From Haloarcula taiwanensis (GTDB lineage: Archaea > Halobacteriota > Halobacteria > Halobacteriales > Haloarculaceae), in the NCBI GenBank assembly GCA_002844335.1, contig CP019154.1, positions 1,178,001 through 1,242,000 of the forward strand: 64,000 nt of DNA. Reading direction: 5' to 3'. The notes under the pieces are model-generated. The model ran no database searches. It had not been told where the DNA came from and was given only the letters and a program-made list of their open reading frames with translations. The position numbers and the translations under genes are program-made. Below, piece after piece: positions 40,360 through 45,698 of the stretch; position 1 is the stretch's first letter; the number at the start of each line of letters is the position of its first letter.

Positions 40360-40436
40360 ATGGGCTGTGAGAAACGGCGGGGAACCCGCTCTCAAATACA
40401 GCAGATCCACACCGCAATGAATGGAGCCACCGTCGC

Positions 40437-41660
40437 TCAGGTCGGCTCGTCAAGTTGCTTCTCAGAAGACTGTCGCCGCCACTGTGGCGTTTCGAGGAGG
40501 AGTCGGAGCGGCCAGATAACGTAGTACAGCGGATGCAATGGACCAGGAAGCGGGTAAAACTGATACTCCGAGTAGGTCGGGTGAAGTGGCGAATACAACA
40601 GCAAGAACGGAACCAGCGCAGTCATCGAATCGCTGGCAGTCAGGTAAAACCGAGCGGCTTCGAACTTCGTGGGCGCCTCTGGCGTCCCGGCAGCCAGCGA
40701 CTCGACGACGTCCTCGACTAATTCGGAGACGCGGCTATCCGTGCGAAGGCGGTCCAGTATCGGCGCTGGGAGGGAATATCCGAAGACAGAATGGGCGAGT
40801 GCGGCCCCGAGCAGTAGATTCCGCTCAACGCCGGTTTCCCGCGCCCGAGCAAGGACGTGTGGCCAGTCGGCTTCTCTCGACTCCAGTGCCGCAACGAAAT
40901 CACAGAGCCACTTCAGGAGATACCAGCGGTGCTTGGTTCCGTGGAAAGCCAGCACGAGCAGTCGGTCTGGCTGTGCAAGCGCTGGAAGCGGTTGACCGCC
41001 GACCGATACGGTGTCGCGGTGATCCCAGAGTTCACTGAACGGTATGGAGAACGGTCGCTCGGCATCGCCAACACGCCAGCGAAGCTCCACGTCGAAATCT
41101 GGACCTCGCATCTCGTACTCGTGAACGATAGCTTTCGTCACAGGACCACCTAACAGCGCGGCGTCGTCCAGCCGCGGCGTGCCCCCGTGCCATTCGTATC
41201 CCCTCTCTTCCAGAATATCCGCAGCGACGGGGATATCTTCCGGATGGACGAGCAGATCCAAGTCGTTGTACTCACGCACCGTTGCGTCATCGTAGGCAGC
41301 GGCTGACAGCGCCGGCCCCTTGAACGGTATCGCGCGCACCCCGCGTGCCTCGAAGCGTTTCAGTATCTGCTGCAGCTCGGTCGTGAACGCGAGATTTCGC
41401 ATCTGCTTTCCCTGTACGATGCTGCTAAGTCGTGTCAACACGGCCTCCGGCACGGTGAAGTCATCACCACACTTGCGTGCCATCGCTTCCAGCCCCTCAT
41501 AGAGGAGTTGCACGACGCCGTGGTACCGGGCGAGTTCAACGACGCGGTCCCAGTCCGGCGTGCCATCCCTCGTGGGAGGCTCGGGGGAAGCGCCGGTGAT
41601 AGTTGCGGTACGAGTACAATTGAGTACCAGTCGGAGTTCGGGTTCAGCCTCCGTCAGCAT
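40437..41660 (-). CDS. Nucleotidyltransferase of the RiPP cluster (NTP_transf_5 type)
   Basis: A 407-residue protein of the uncharacterised nucleotidyltransferase family often found in lasso-peptide clusters. The catalytic core lies at about residues 105-150: FEARGVRAIPFKGPALSAAA is followed by VREYNDLDLLVHPED, with the two Asp of the DLDLLV motif as metal ligands. The rest is helical, with a FHGTKHRWYLLKWLCDF segment typical of the family and a Pro/Tyr/Leu-rich C-terminus (PLPGPLHPLYYVIWPLRLLL). It overlaps the kinase gene end by 7 bp, so the two are coupled. It may transfer a nucleotide or related group to the peptide; this is inference from family context. Confidence 0.85.
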   Translation of the reverse strand: MLTEAEPELRLVLNCTRTATITGASPEPPTRDGTPDWDRVVELARYHGVVQLLYEGLEAMARKCGDDFTVPEAVLTRLSSIVQGKQMRNLAFTTELQQILKRFEARGVRAIPFKGPALSAAAYDDATVREYNDLDLLVHPEDIPVAADILEERGYEWHGGTPRLDDAALLGGPVTKAIVHEYEMRGPDFDVELRWRVGDAERPFSIPFSELWDHRDTVSVGGQPLPALAQPDRLLVLAFHGTKHRWYLLKWLCDFVAALESREADWPHVLARARETGVERNLLLGAALAHSVFGYSLPAPILDRLRTDSRVSELVEDVVESLAAGTPEAPTKFEAARFYLTASDSMTALVPFLLLYSPLHPTYSEYQFYPLPGPLHPLYYVIWPLRLLLETPQWRRQSSEKQLDEPT

Positions 41661-42568
41661 GAGTCACTCTGGAGATCAGATTGAATCCGGGCTGCGACAT
41701 CCGGGATCGCATCGAGATGACGCGGCCGGCGGAGCCGTTTTATATCTGTCACATCGACAATCTCACCACAGGCGTTGAAATTGGATACAGCCTGGCCGTC
41801 GGCTTCCAGCGCGCCCAGCGTATACGTGTTATCTACGAGCGCCATGACCTGTTTGTCCGGCCTGACTGCGTCCACCTCGATTGTCTCGCCGTCTTCGAGC
41901 AAATAAATCCGTTCTAGCGGCACCGGAGTCGCGGGCTGGTCGTGCCTGAGTCCGTAGAAATGTCGAGGGCGTCCGCTGTGGACCTGTTCCGGCGGTTCGA
42001 CCGGGGGGTCAAACATCTCGACCGCCTCCGGGTCGAGTTTCATCGATGGGTAGCCGCTCCGGACAATCGGTCCTTCATCGTCCAGCGCTATCGCAGCCAC
42101 GTCGTCGCTGAGGACACGGTGTCCATCGAGCAGGCAGGCCATCGCAGTTGTCGTTTTTCCGACCCCCGACTCTCCGACGAACGCCACTGCACGCCCGTCG
42201 ATGCTGACGGTACTGGCATGCAGCACGAAGTAGCCGCGCTGATCCAGCAGATGGTTCAACGCCGGGCCAACCAGTACGTGGCGGAGGACTTCGCTTGGCA
42301 CGTCCGAGGCCGGGTCTACAGCGATGGATTTCCCGTCGAGAATTCTGACCGTTGCGGCGTCGTATAGCAGATAGTATTCGCGCTCGTCTACCGCGTGAAA
42401 GGTCGACCGGGGGTCTGCAGCCAGTGGGCGAGGAATACATTCGTCAGTGATGGTGACGTCAGCCTGCCCGTCGGGCGCTGGCTCAGCGAGCGGAAGCTCC
42501 GGTACGTCGAAAGCAGAGCGGACTGTCAGTCCAAAGGCTTCGTACGTGGCTGTCTTTGCCGTTGCCAT
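41654..42568 (-). CDS. HPr-kinase-like kinase of the RiPP cluster
   Basis: A protein of about 304 residues related to HPr serine kinase and to the kinases that phosphorylate the C-terminal Ser of some lasso peptides. It carries Walker A GESGVGKTTT, VLSDDVAAIALDD and GYPSMKL in the expected order, and LHASTVSIDGRAVAFVGESG leads into the P-loop. The start ATG at 42568 is preceded by GGGAGG and gives TATYEAFGLTVRSAFDVPEL early, as in relatives; ATG at 42613 is an alternative. It lies downstream of the precursor gene and overlaps the nucleotidyltransferase gene. Its natural target is unclear, since the putative core peptide has no Ser or Thr. Confidence 0.84.
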   Translation of the reverse strand: MATAKTATYEAFGLTVRSAFDVPELPLAEPAPDGQADVTITDECIPRPLAADPRSTFHAVDEREYYLLYDAATVRILDGKSIAVDPASDVPSEVLRHVLVGPALNHLLDQRGYFVLHASTVSIDGRAVAFVGESGVGKTTTAMACLLDGHRVLSDDVAAIALDDEGPIVRSGYPSMKLDPEAVEMFDPPVEPPEQVHSGRPRHFYGLRHDQPATPVPLERIYLLEDGETIEVDAVRPDKQVMALVDNTYTLGALEADGQAVSNFNACGEIVDVTDIKRLRRPRHLDAIPDVAARIQSDLQSDSC

Positions 42569-42761
42569 CCTGCTAGTTGCCTCCCTGCGTGGCTGTCCAT
42601 TGGTTCCATCCATGCTGAGATACACCCCATCGACGGCGCCCCTGATTCATACCAGACCGCTTGACTGCTGTGGTGGATAAGAATGGACTCTCTACTCCCA
42701 GCACACAGGCACAAAACCGTCGCGATGTATCCACTGAACGGTGCCAATGTCGAGTGCCGAT

Positions 42762-42766
42762 AAAAA
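42762..42766 (-). terminator. T-tract after the precursor gene
   Basis: On the minus strand five T in the context CCTTTTTATC lie about 35 bp after the precursor stop codon, before the kinase gene. It could end a short, abundant precursor transcript. There is no hairpin before it, which is normal in archaea. Confidence 0.3.
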
Positions 42767-42800
42767 GGAAACTATTAGATATATGAACCGGCTGTGGACG

Positions 42801-42899
42801 CTAGTCCCACTTCCCGTATCCGTCGTCGTGGTCCCACCAGTTCGTCTTTTCTTCGACAGTTCCGTACGTTTCTACCGACGGCGTTTCGTATTCCTTCAT
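42801..42899 (-). CDS. RiPP precursor peptide with lasso-type leader (32 residues)
   Basis: ATG at 42897-42899 opens a 32-codon frame ending in TAG at 42801. Residues 4-19 fit the lasso leader consensus YxxPxLxxxGxxxxxT at every position, with Val9 for Leu: Tyr4, Pro7, Gly13 and Thr19. The part after Thr19 is NWWDHDDGYGKWD, short, acidic and aromatic, unlike a globular protein. It lies between the B2 and kinase genes, on their strand, with its own TATA box and GAGGTGG upstream. The B1 protein should bind the leader and B2 cut it. If the core began at Asn20, Asp26 would be residue 7; under the usual rule that Thr is at -2 (core from Trp21) no acid falls at positions 7-9. Confidence 0.82.
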   Translation of the reverse strand: MKEYETPSVETYGTVEEKTNWWDHDDGYGKWD

Positions 42900-42939
42900 G
42901 GGTTACCCCCACCTCTGCTTTCAGATGTTTTTGTATTTG

Positions 42940-42948
42940 TTATATAAT
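42940..42948 (-). promoter_or_regulatory. TATA box of the precursor gene
   Basis: On the minus strand ATTATATAA stands about 45 bp before the precursor ATG in an AT-rich spacer after the B2 gene. It is one of the best TATA matches in the window and suggests that the precursor is expressed from its own promoter, apart from B1 and B2. The implied leader of about 20 nt contains GAGGTGG. Confidence 0.5.
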
Positions 42949-42991
42949 CTATTACTGCTAAATTTCGAGAGAATAGGGTATTTACTATCCG

Positions 42992-43429
42992 TTAGCCACG
43001 CACTTCGTGTTCAGTGAGTATTTGGAAACGCCCAAAGTTGTCGACATCCCCAATGAGGACCTCACCGTTCGACTCGATCCAGGCGTGGGCCTCGAAAGTG
43101 TTGGATTGCGTATCCACGCCGAAGCGGAGACAGTGTGGCAAGTCGCTCGCCTCCAGCAGTGTGCTACCAGTCAGTGCTCGATCAAGACAGTCGTAGGTGC
43201 CCGGAAGATGTGATCCTGCTGTCAAAACCGCCCAGCGTACCACTTCTGGTGATCCAGACTGACGATGACACGGGAGAAACTGAGAGACCGTGCCGAAACA
43301 GCGCTCTGCGTCTTCCAGCCCAGCGACTGTAAGCAGTACTTTGCTCGTAACGATCAGTACCACTGCTTCACAGAGGAATAGCTTCTGCGCCCATGACAAC
43401 GCTCTGAAATCACGGAGCCGGGCTCTCAT
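42992..43429 (-). CDS. Lasso peptide B2-type leader peptidase (transglutaminase-like)
   Basis: A protein of 145 residues from the ATG at 43429 (an in-frame upstream start would add 18 residues and overlap the B1 gene more deeply). Near the N-terminus is the hydrophobic WAQKLFLCEAVVLIVTSKVLL. The C-terminal half is the Transglut_core3 fold with the Cys in TYDCLDRAL, the His in FEAHAWIESNG and the Asp in VLIGDVDN, the Cys-His-Asp triad of B2 leader peptidases. Its start overlaps the B1 stop by 20 bp. The precursor gene follows 92 bp downstream. The family cuts the leader from lasso precursors. Confidence 0.88.
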   Translation of the reverse strand: MRARLRDFRALSWAQKLFLCEAVVLIVTSKVLLTVAGLEDAERCFGTVSQFLPCHRQSGSPEVVRWAVLTAGSHLPGTYDCLDRALTGSTLLEASDLPHCLRFGVDTQSNTFEAHAWIESNGEVLIGDVDNFGRFQILTEHEVRG

Positions 43430-43706
43430 CGACCTTGATGAGTTGCTCCGCGGCAAGCGTTTCCAGAAAACGTTCCACGTCATTTACTGCTCGGTCTCTG
43501 TCGATATCGTACTCTCTGACCAGCGCCGAGACGATGTCCGCTGGTTCCGTCGGTTCCTGAACCCGATCCCAGATATCCGGGCCAACCCCTGTCAGGCCCT
43601 GATACTGCCCCGTCTCGTTGTTGAGCAGCACGATCTCGCCGTCGATAGTTGTGGTGACACAGTCGTCAGTTGCGACGACAGTCGATCCGGAATCTATTGC
43701 GACCAT
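43410..43706 (-). CDS. PqqD-like leader-binding protein (lasso B1 type)
   Basis: A 98-residue RiPP recognition element. The family pattern is visible in order: IDGEIVLLNNETGQYQGL, GVGPDIWDRVQEPT, DIVSALVREYDI, then RFLETLAAEQLIKV. These proteins bind the leader and bring it to the B2 peptidase. It is the first gene of the minus-strand part of the cluster and diverges from the exporter gene over a 148-bp gap. The ATG at 43706 is not preceded by a clear ribosome binding site, so the message may be leaderless. Confidence 0.88.
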   Translation of the reverse strand: MVAIDSGSTVVATDDCVTTTIDGEIVLLNNETGQYQGLTGVGPDIWDRVQEPTEPADIVSALVREYDIDRDRAVNDVERFLETLAAEQLIKVDESPAP

Positions 43707-43802
43707 GTGGATATCGGCGATACTCGCACTATTTGTTATGGACCCTTTTCACCCCCGTGGCAATTCTGATCACCGTAAGACGTGCCCTTCGCGCCCGTAG
43801 GA

Positions 43803-43822
43803 ACCGACCGTAGTAAGTCGGT
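43803..43822. repeat. Inverted repeat between B1 and the exporter gene
   Basis: ACCGAC (43803-43808) and GTCGGT (43817-43822) are separated by 8 bp and end 32 bp before the exporter ATG. It is the only clear dyad in the divergent promoter region of the RiPP cluster and might be an operator. Confidence 0.3.
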
Positions 43823-43854
43823 AACTATGCCGCATAGAAACCGCATCGGGAACA

Positions 43855-45666
43855 ATGGTGGCTGCTACTCCCTCCGTCAGTGAAAAATACGCATCGTTGC
43901 GCCGCGTGGCACTGTACCGTCCGGCGTTGACAGGGAGTATCGTCGCAGCCAGCCTCTTCGTGATGCTACTGGAGGGTGTTGGCCTCTCGTTCCTGTTTCC
44001 GATACTCGACGCCGCACAGGCCGGGCAGGGTCTCCCGCTTCAGGCGGACGGCGTCACCGGTCAGTTCCTTTCGGCGTACGCCGCTGCAGGACTGCCGCTC
44101 ACGCTCGAATTCATGTTGGTCGGCCTCGCGTGCGTGATGGTTATCCGATACACGGCATCGTTTGCGGTGAAATGGCTCGCAGCGAAGCTTACACAGACGT
44201 ACGAACGCGATCTCAAGAACAGGGCCTACGAACTGGCGATGGGCGCGTCGGTTGCCTACTACGACGACAAGGGGTCCGACGACATCATGAACACGATTCT
44301 GACACAGACCCGGTACGCTGGCCGTGTCATCGGTCGGATCATCCAGTTCTTCCAGCAGGGAATCCTCTGCCTGGTGTATATCGGAATCGCACTGGCTATC
44401 GCACCGGTGCTGGCAGTCGGTGCGGCTGTCGCCCTCGGCGGCGTCACGGCGATTATCAGATACGGCATCGAGCCCGGCTACGCTGTCGGCGACCGTGTGG
44501 CGACGGCAAACGAACAACTGCAGGAGACAACACAGGCGGGGACGCAGGGGATCCGTGACGTGAAGCTGTTTGGTATGCGCGACGGACTGCTTGCTGAGTT
44601 CCGGGATACACTCGACCGATACACTGCAACCAGTGTCGCCGTTCGCCGGAACCAGGTCGCAATCGGAAGCCTCTATCGGCTCTCAGTCTCGCTGCTCCTG
44701 TTTGGGCTCGTCTACGTCGCCATCAGTTTTCGGGCGCTGTCTATCGCGGAACTCGGCGTGTTCCTGTTCGCGATGCTCCGACTCGCCCCCCGGCTGAGTT
44801 CGCTCAACTCTACCATCTACGCTATCGAGGGGGAGCTCCCACATCTGGTCCGAACCCACCAGTTTATCGACCGCCTTGAGGCCCAGCAGGAGCCAACTAA
44901 CGGGCAGTCGGTTCCGGCCCGAATCGAGGCCCTCGCGTTCGAGAACGTCTCGTTCGCCTACGAGGACGAGCCAGTGCTTGCGGACTTCTCGATGGCTGTC
45001 GAGCGGGGGGAGTTCGTTGGCATCGTCGGCGAATCCGGCGGCGGTAAATCAACAGTCGTCTCGTTGCTCACTCGGCTCTACGAGCCGGACAGTGGTGACA
45101 TCCTGGCAAACGGGACGCCGATTTCGACATATGCCCTTGACGAATGGCGTGACGCTGTTGCGATGGTCCGACAGGACCCGCATATCTTCAACGACTCCTT
45201 GCGGTACAACCTCACCGTCGGCAGGGATATTTCCGACGAGACGCTGTACGAGGTCGCAGAGAAGGCCCTCGTTCTCGAATTTCTCGAGGACCTCCCGCAA
45301 GGGCTCGACACGGTGCTGGGCGACGACGGCGTGAAACTCTCCGGCGGGCAACGCCAGCGCGTCGCACTGGCCCGCGCGCTGCTGACGGATGCAGAGATAC
45401 TCGTACTCGATGAGGCAACCAGCGACCTCGACTCGAATCTGGAACGGCAAATCCACCGTACTGTCGAGACGCTTGACGGGGACCAGACCGTGATCGCAAT
45501 CGCCCACCGGCTCTCGACCGTCTCGAACGCCGACCGAATCTACACCGTCGCGGACGGGCAGGTCACAGAACAGGGCAGCCACGCCGAACTACTCGACGAC
45601 GGCGGGACGTACGCGGAGCTGTACGCGATGCAGGGAACGGCAGCCACACAGTCTTCAAGCGGTTGA
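43855..45666 (+). CDS. ABC exporter of the RiPP cluster (fused membrane and ATPase domains)
   Basis: A 603-residue half-transporter. Six membrane helices occupy about residues 15-310. The ATPase has Walker A GESGGGKST, Q-loop MVRQDPHIFND, signature KLSGGQRQRVALARAL, Walker B ILVLDEATSDLDS and the switch IAIAHRLST. This is the MsbA/LanT-like exporter type (lasso D), without a peptidase domain. It would form a homodimer and export the mature peptide, which also gives self-protection in known clusters. It is transcribed divergently from B1. Downstream genes are unrelated, so the cluster ends here. Confidence 0.9.
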   Translation: MVAATPSVSEKYASLRRVALYRPALTGSIVAASLFVMLLEGVGLSFLFPILDAAQAGQGLPLQADGVTGQFLSAYAAAGLPLTLEFMLVGLACVMVIRYTASFAVKWLAAKLTQTYERDLKNRAYELAMGASVAYYDDKGSDDIMNTILTQTRYAGRVIGRIIQFFQQGILCLVYIGIALAIAPVLAVGAAVALGGVTAIIRYGIEPGYAVGDRVATANEQLQETTQAGTQGIRDVKLFGMRDGLLAEFRDTLDRYTATSVAVRRNQVAIGSLYRLSVSLLLFGLVYVAISFRALSIAELGVFLFAMLRLAPRLSSLNSTIYAIEGELPHLVRTHQFIDRLEAQQEPTNGQSVPARIEALAFENVSFAYEDEPVLADFSMAVERGEFVGIVGESGGGKSTVVSLLTRLYEPDSGDILANGTPISTYALDEWRDAVAMVRQDPHIFNDSLRYNLTVGRDISDETLYEVAEKALVLEFLEDLPQGLDTVLGDDGVKLSGGQRQRVALARALLTDAEILVLDEATSDLDSNLERQIHRTVETLDGDQTVIAIAHRLSTVSNADRIYTVADGQVTEQGSHAELLDDGGTYAELYAMQGTAATQSSSG

Positions 45667-45698
45667 GCGGCGCTCACTGGGACGGGTGGGCCACCAGA

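Follow-up and report, generated by a model that had tools for sequence, protein, structure and literature searches.

What does a gene set of lasso-peptide type make when the enzyme that defines the lasso pathway is missing? A 64,000-nucleotide stretch of the Haloarcula taiwanensis genome (contig CP019154.1, positions 1,178,001 to 1,242,000; hereafter the window) raises this question. Six of its genes encode a 32-aa precursor (A), a B1 protein that acts as a recognition element (RRE) for ribosomally synthesized and post-translationally modified peptides (RiPPs), a B2 protease, an HprK-like kinase (K), an NTP_transf_5 nucleotidyltransferase (NT), and an ABC exporter. A first-pass annotation had described them as six adjacent genes with no lasso cyclase in the cluster; all six are found at the positions given there, domain and profile matches and predicted folds bear out the gene assignments, and the cluster indeed holds no cyclase. 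We consider it likely that the set is a cyclase-free RiPP pathway with a lasso-type leader, whose product would be a short, linear, modified, and exported peptide.

Search for a lasso cyclase

The asparagine-synthetase-like macrolactam cyclase of lasso pathways was found neither in the cluster nor in the rest of the genome. A search of the H. taiwanensis genome (G000) with PF00733 returned four matches in three genes, none of them a lasso cyclase. One of these genes encodes a 390-aa asparagine-synthetase-like protein (C1:1860297-1861466), which occurs in 109 of 116 haloarchaea irrespective of the set and was missed by a cyclase profile built from 18 lasso cyclases. The other two encode, by our own reading of their sequences, a LarE-like ATP-pyrophosphatase and an argininosuccinate synthase. 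The profile had no match in G000 or in a second set-bearing genome, G153. In other Haloarcula it detected only AsnB-type genes, scoring at most about 230 bits compared with 549-1001 bits for true cyclases, and these genes are present both with and without the set, showing no co-occurrence.

The first-pass annotation had also allowed for a cyclase elsewhere in the genome, in which case an unlinked asparagine-synthetase-like enzyme would close the ring on the precursor in a split lasso pathway. The single asparagine-synthetase-like gene of H. taiwanensis and the AsnB-type genes of some Haloarcula could be read in favor of this arrangement, as could genome G002 (L088, L096), possibly a split lasso set, in which about 20 kb separate B1, B2, and NT from the kinase, the cyclase, and the precursor. 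However, the profile negatives in G000 and G153 and the wide spread of the 390-aa gene mean that no unlinked cyclase is co-inherited with the set, and the Haloarcula core, with only 11-12 residues, has no Asp or Glu at positions 7-9. We regard a split lasso pathway as very unlikely.

Precursor, enzymes, and proposed pathway

The precursor gene (42801-42899, minus strand) was recognized by its leader pattern and its conservation in Haloarcula, and its product divides into a leader, MKEYETPSVETYGTVEEKT-N, and a predicted core, WWDHDDGYGKWD. The leader sequence YETPSVETYGTVEEKT follows the pattern YxxPxV...G...T, and the precursor matched lasso leader models weakly (0.014, below the cut-off). Thirty-one precursor residues are the same in the window as in nine further Haloarcula loci (dN 0.000). 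Among the 11 Haloarcula genomes the last residue varies: nine have Ser there, whereas the window and G184 have Asp, and the G184 precursor is also one core residue shorter. By the Thr(-2) rule, the predicted Haloarcula core is thus WWDHDDGYGKWS, or the same ending in Asp, with a length of 11-12 residues. If cleavage occurs one residue past Thr19, WWDHDDGYGKWD has no Asp or Glu at positions 7-9 that could serve as a ring acceptor, and Tyr is its sole hydroxyl residue. With neither a cyclase nor a ring acceptor, the set does not qualify as a lasso pathway.

The enzymes that would act on this precursor are nonetheless of lasso type. B1 (43410-43706, minus strand, overlapping the start of B2) is a PqqD-like RRE that scores above the Pfam cut-off (PF05402, 1.9e-18) and has the lasso RRE TbiB1 as its closest solved relative (2e-14). 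B2 (42992-43429, minus strand) matches Transglut_core3 (3e-16) and, above the curated cut-off, lasso_biosyn_B2 (NF033537, 1.5e-21); alignment shows conservation of the Cys in YDCLDRA, the His in EAHAW, and the Asp in LIGD. The Haloarcula set therefore retains both the RRE and the leader peptidase of a lasso pathway. K (41654-42625, minus strand; its start is uncertain, with an alternative ATG at about 42568) matches HprK-C weakly (1.7e-6, below the cut-off), but it also matches HprK sequences in the PDB, and its predicted structure (mean pLDDT 87) has the PEPCK/HprK fold. Its residues H136, K157, D174, and D175 do not vary in either of two alignments (22 and 8 sequences) and correspond to the catalytic His-Lys-Asp-Asp set needed in lasso tailoring kinases (PMC9266682).

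NT (40437-41660, minus strand, 407 aa) belongs to PF14907 (6e-66) and has invariant K114-G115 and D133-x-D135 motifs in the alignment. Its predicted structure (pLDDT 80) is a nucleotidyltransferase fold closest to ANT(2'')-Ia, LnuA, and FKRP. Since these neighbors comprise both aminoglycoside/lincosamide nucleotidyltransferases and FKRP, a ribitol-phosphate transferase, NT could transfer either a nucleotide or a sugar/alditol phosphate. The exporter (43855-45666, plus strand, divergent from B1) is of the MsbA type, with fused transmembrane and ATPase domains (PF00005, 9e-32; PF00664, 1.4e-9).

On the basis of these assignments, we propose that B1 binds the YxxP leader and would hand the precursor to B2 and the tailoring enzymes. 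K would phosphorylate the core once or more; the likeliest site is either the invariant Tyr of a Tyr-Gly pair or, in precursors that have one, the C-terminal Ser. NT would attach a nucleotide or a sugar/alditol phosphate, either directly to the core or onto the phosphate added by K. B2 would then cut off the leader beside the conserved Thr(-2), after which the product would leave the cell through the ABC exporter. A linear peptide modified by kinase and nucleotidyltransferase had been one of the options raised by the annotation; the absence of a cyclase and the features of the core favor it, and the modification chemistry is a prediction.

Two noncoding elements accompany these genes. The presumptive promoter region of the precursor (42900-42975, minus strand), delimited in an 11-locus alignment, contains a TATAACAAA box that is kept in 11 of 11 Haloarcula loci and lies some 50 nt ahead of the ATG of A. 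Between A and K lies a second block, TTCTTATCCACCACAGCAGTCAAGCG (42658-42683, minus strand), which occurs once in the genome and does not differ among the aligned Haloarcula sets apart from the most distant one (L013/G184). This block has no Rfam match and probably serves as a promoter of K and NT or as a regulatory site. No RNA family of Rfam matched anywhere in the island.

Conservation of the set and of its cores

The set behaves as a unit in the genus. Its left neighbor encodes DUF790/Bax1, adjoining an XPB helicase, and its right neighbors encode a DUF7122 protein and an RsmB/F methyltransferase, in agreement with the unrelated flanks reported by the first pass. In the set-free loci L098, L099, and L100 of related Haloarcula, the same flanking genes lie tens of bp apart (33 bp in L098) compared with 5.3 kb in the window. 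The island (40360-45698) has no counterpart there and therefore consists of exactly these six genes. The full set is found in 11 of 32 Haloarcula genomes and is absent as a unit from many others; G395, of the same genus, carries a different lasso set that includes a cyclase.

Could the set be a relic that recently lost its cyclase, now decaying and making no useful product? Its absence from many Haloarcula and the remnants in G187 would fit such a history. In the latter genome (L094, 8163-9323), a deletion has removed K, A, B2, and B1 and left a scar in which NT residue 67 meets exporter residue 547, so that NT residues 67-406 are fused to the final 57 residues of the exporter. In contrast, the eleven full sets show purifying selection on all genes (omega 0.09-0.25) and an invariant precursor, which speaks against decay of the intact sets, whereas G187 has lost its set by deletion. 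The cyclase has, moreover, apparently been absent for a long time, as its absence marks a clade of several genera, and a decaying relic is accordingly a most improbable explanation.

This clade emerged from a wider comparison. A lasso B2 was present in 33 of 391 sampled haloarchaeal genomes, and in about 20 haloarchaeal loci (including loci found later via K) the same enzymes adjoin a cyclase of 620-640 aa. In phylogenetic trees, the Haloarcula sets grouped with those of G036 and G317, all lacking a local cyclase, apart from the cyclase-bearing haloarchaeal loci (support 99/94 for B2, 99/97 for K, and 100/100 for NT). Both sets of G322 joined this group in the K tree, one of them weakly. G436 and G440 were found later with a K profile and were left out of the trees; their leaders and core motifs match those of the cyclase-free sets. 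From these trees, the cyclase-free sets appear to form mostly their own clade, including at least two genera besides Haloarcula, and the absence of the cyclase thus seems old and stable. The label requires four to five changes on the trees, so the bacterial sets without a cyclase are probably separate cases. These are B1-B2-K-NT sets lacking a local cyclase in Dyadobacter (L023, L024, L026, L027) and Bryobacteraceae (L030), in which the leader pattern found no precursors.

The leader pattern also located the precursors of other genera, whose cores differ clearly from lasso cores. With related loci counted as separate cores, so that the figures are indicative only, the median core length is 12 aa in cyclase-free and 26 aa in cyclase-bearing loci (p 4e-8), Tyr is present in 19/19 cyclase-free compared with 18/34 lasso cores, and Ser and Thr are both missing from 10 of the 19 cyclase-free cores, including those of G317, G436, and G440, while all 34 lasso cores have at least one. 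Tyr usually stands in an acidic...Tyr-Gly motif (Haloarcula, G036, G436, G440, and G317 lineages). These features are far better separators than a ring acceptor at positions 7-9, which distinguishes the two groups weakly (p 0.04) because the core start in several true lasso precursors defies the Thr(-2) rule.

Several cyclase-free loci show how variable the cores can be. In G322 (L062, 13726-15925), five consecutive precursors share one leader but have differing cores of 8-12 aa, four of them with an SEP motif, and the second set of this genome (L065) has a core of Arg, Trp, and Gly. In G390 (L077, 9733-11178), one of three precursors has a core made almost entirely of glycine (RGGGG...GPIGYGQ). 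Among the cyclase-bearing loci, L064, L070, and L097 represent a second lasso subtype of haloarchaea, which has a cyclase and a kinase of its own and cores of the form G(R/N)HFS(R/A)VDGNSGTTGN; in two cases it adjoins a main lasso set.

Judging from their composition, Tyr would be the simplest acceptor common to the cyclase-free cores. We therefore put forward, tentatively, a distinct archaeal RiPP class in which K and NT modify the Tyr of Tyr-Gly in short linear peptides, giving phospho- or nucleotidyl-Tyr, before release by B2. To our knowledge, a Tyr-directed peptide kinase of the HprK family and a cyclase-free use of B1 and B2 would, if true, be the first of their kind. Tyr is a known target of other enzymes in the nucleotidyltransferase superfamily, such as GlnE, GlnD, and MntA.

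The same enzymes could instead leave the Tyr unmodified and phosphorylate a C-terminal Ser of a linear peptide as in paeninodin, with NT capping the phosphate as in pseudomycoidin. The kinases PadeK/ThcoK and PsmK target a C-terminal Ser, to which the NT homologue PsmN is required for the addition of a hexose, and nine of 11 Haloarcula precursors end in Ser. Yet the precursors of the window and G184 end in Asp, and the cyclase-free cores of G317, G436, and G440 offer no Ser or Thr at all. Because K is under the same purifying selection in the window species, we infer that the C-terminal Ser cannot be its sole target; this alternative is possible but less likely.

A further explanation is that K and NT form a signaling or cofactor system and that the peptide is a regulator which is not exported. 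The almost invariant leader and core in Haloarcula, unlike fast-evolving antimicrobial cores, would suit a regulator. Nevertheless, every complete Haloarcula set has its B2 protease and fused ABC exporter, the leader has an RRE-binding YxxP motif, and cores diverge strongly between genera and within the multi-precursor genomes G322, G436, and G390. This explanation is unlikely.

Other observations count against a linear, Tyr-modified product, in addition to the counting of related loci noted above. The core boundaries depend on the Thr(-2) rule, and some cyclase-free cores (in G036, G436, G440, and G317) do have Asp or Glu at positions 7-9. The cyclase-free cluster of G436 carries an AsnB-like gene between its three precursors and the exporter (L123, 4415-6401), although this gene is frameshifted, begins with MCGIAG (a Cys nucleophile), and is a 30-32% match to lasso cyclases, and we rejected it as a lasso cyclase. 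Finally, LppK, the kinase of bacterial linear polyphosphorylated peptides (LPPs), phosphorylates Ser and not Tyr, and an S3Y variant remained unphosphorylated (PMC13381572).

Relation to known pathways

If the proposed pathway is correct, the lasso machinery has found a stable second use that dispenses with its defining enzyme, and this in a second domain of life, with a clade and a short core motif of its own. The idea of linear phosphorylated peptides, hitherto tied to Bacillota, would then also take in an archaeal form that relies on another protease. The occurrence of the same enzymes with and without a cyclase in related lineages offers a clean comparison for the roles of K and NTP_transf_5 proteins. 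The window precursor, whose predicted core carries no hydroxyl residue but Tyr, lends itself to asking whether such kinases accept residues other than Ser. Tyr-directed modification is a new and testable prediction. Among open-licence papers, we found no earlier report of an archaeal cyclase-free B1/B2 cluster; a survey of archaeal RiPPs lists lassopeptides among the archaeal classes without details (PMC12144867).

Among the closest known systems are the haloarchaeal and cyanobacterial lasso clusters with a cyclase (e.g., L085 and L092), which have homologous B1, B2, K, NT, exporter, and leader but differ in their 620-640 aa cyclase, their mostly 22-32 aa cores, and an often present ring motif of the K(V/I)G-D/E type. 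The paeninodin and pseudomycoidin pathways share B1, B2, the kinase, the exporter, a lasso-like leader with Thr(-2), and, for pseudomycoidin only, the nucleotidyltransferase. They also share the C-terminal Ser with most Haloarcula precursors, two species ending in Asp, whereas the Haloarcula set lacks both cyclase and ring acceptor and has a very short core.

The closest parallel in logic is the LPP pathway (Popov et al. 2026, PMC13381572), which combines an RRE, an HprK-like kinase, an NTP transferase, and an exporter without a cyclase, and for which a linear polyphosphorylated intermediate of a Paenibacillus cluster was seen by mass spectrometry. It is said to be restricted to Bacillota. In common with the Haloarcula set, it has a discrete RRE, the kinase, the NTP transferase, an MsbA-like exporter, a YxxP leader, and no cyclase, so the novelty claimed by the annotation holds in part: the enzyme logic already exists in bacteria, while the B2 protease, the short core, and the Tyr-Gly motif set the archaeal system apart. 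LPP clusters use an SpI/SipW-like leader peptidase where the Haloarcula set has a lasso B2, and their leader motif is YxxPxVLxHQxIxFETxxS rather than the lasso-type YETPSVETYGTVEEKT. Because of these two differences, the features compared indicate that the Haloarcula set is not a member of the LPP family, although it resembles that pathway in logic; it further differs in its archaeal host and in 11-12 aa cores with no obligatory Ser.

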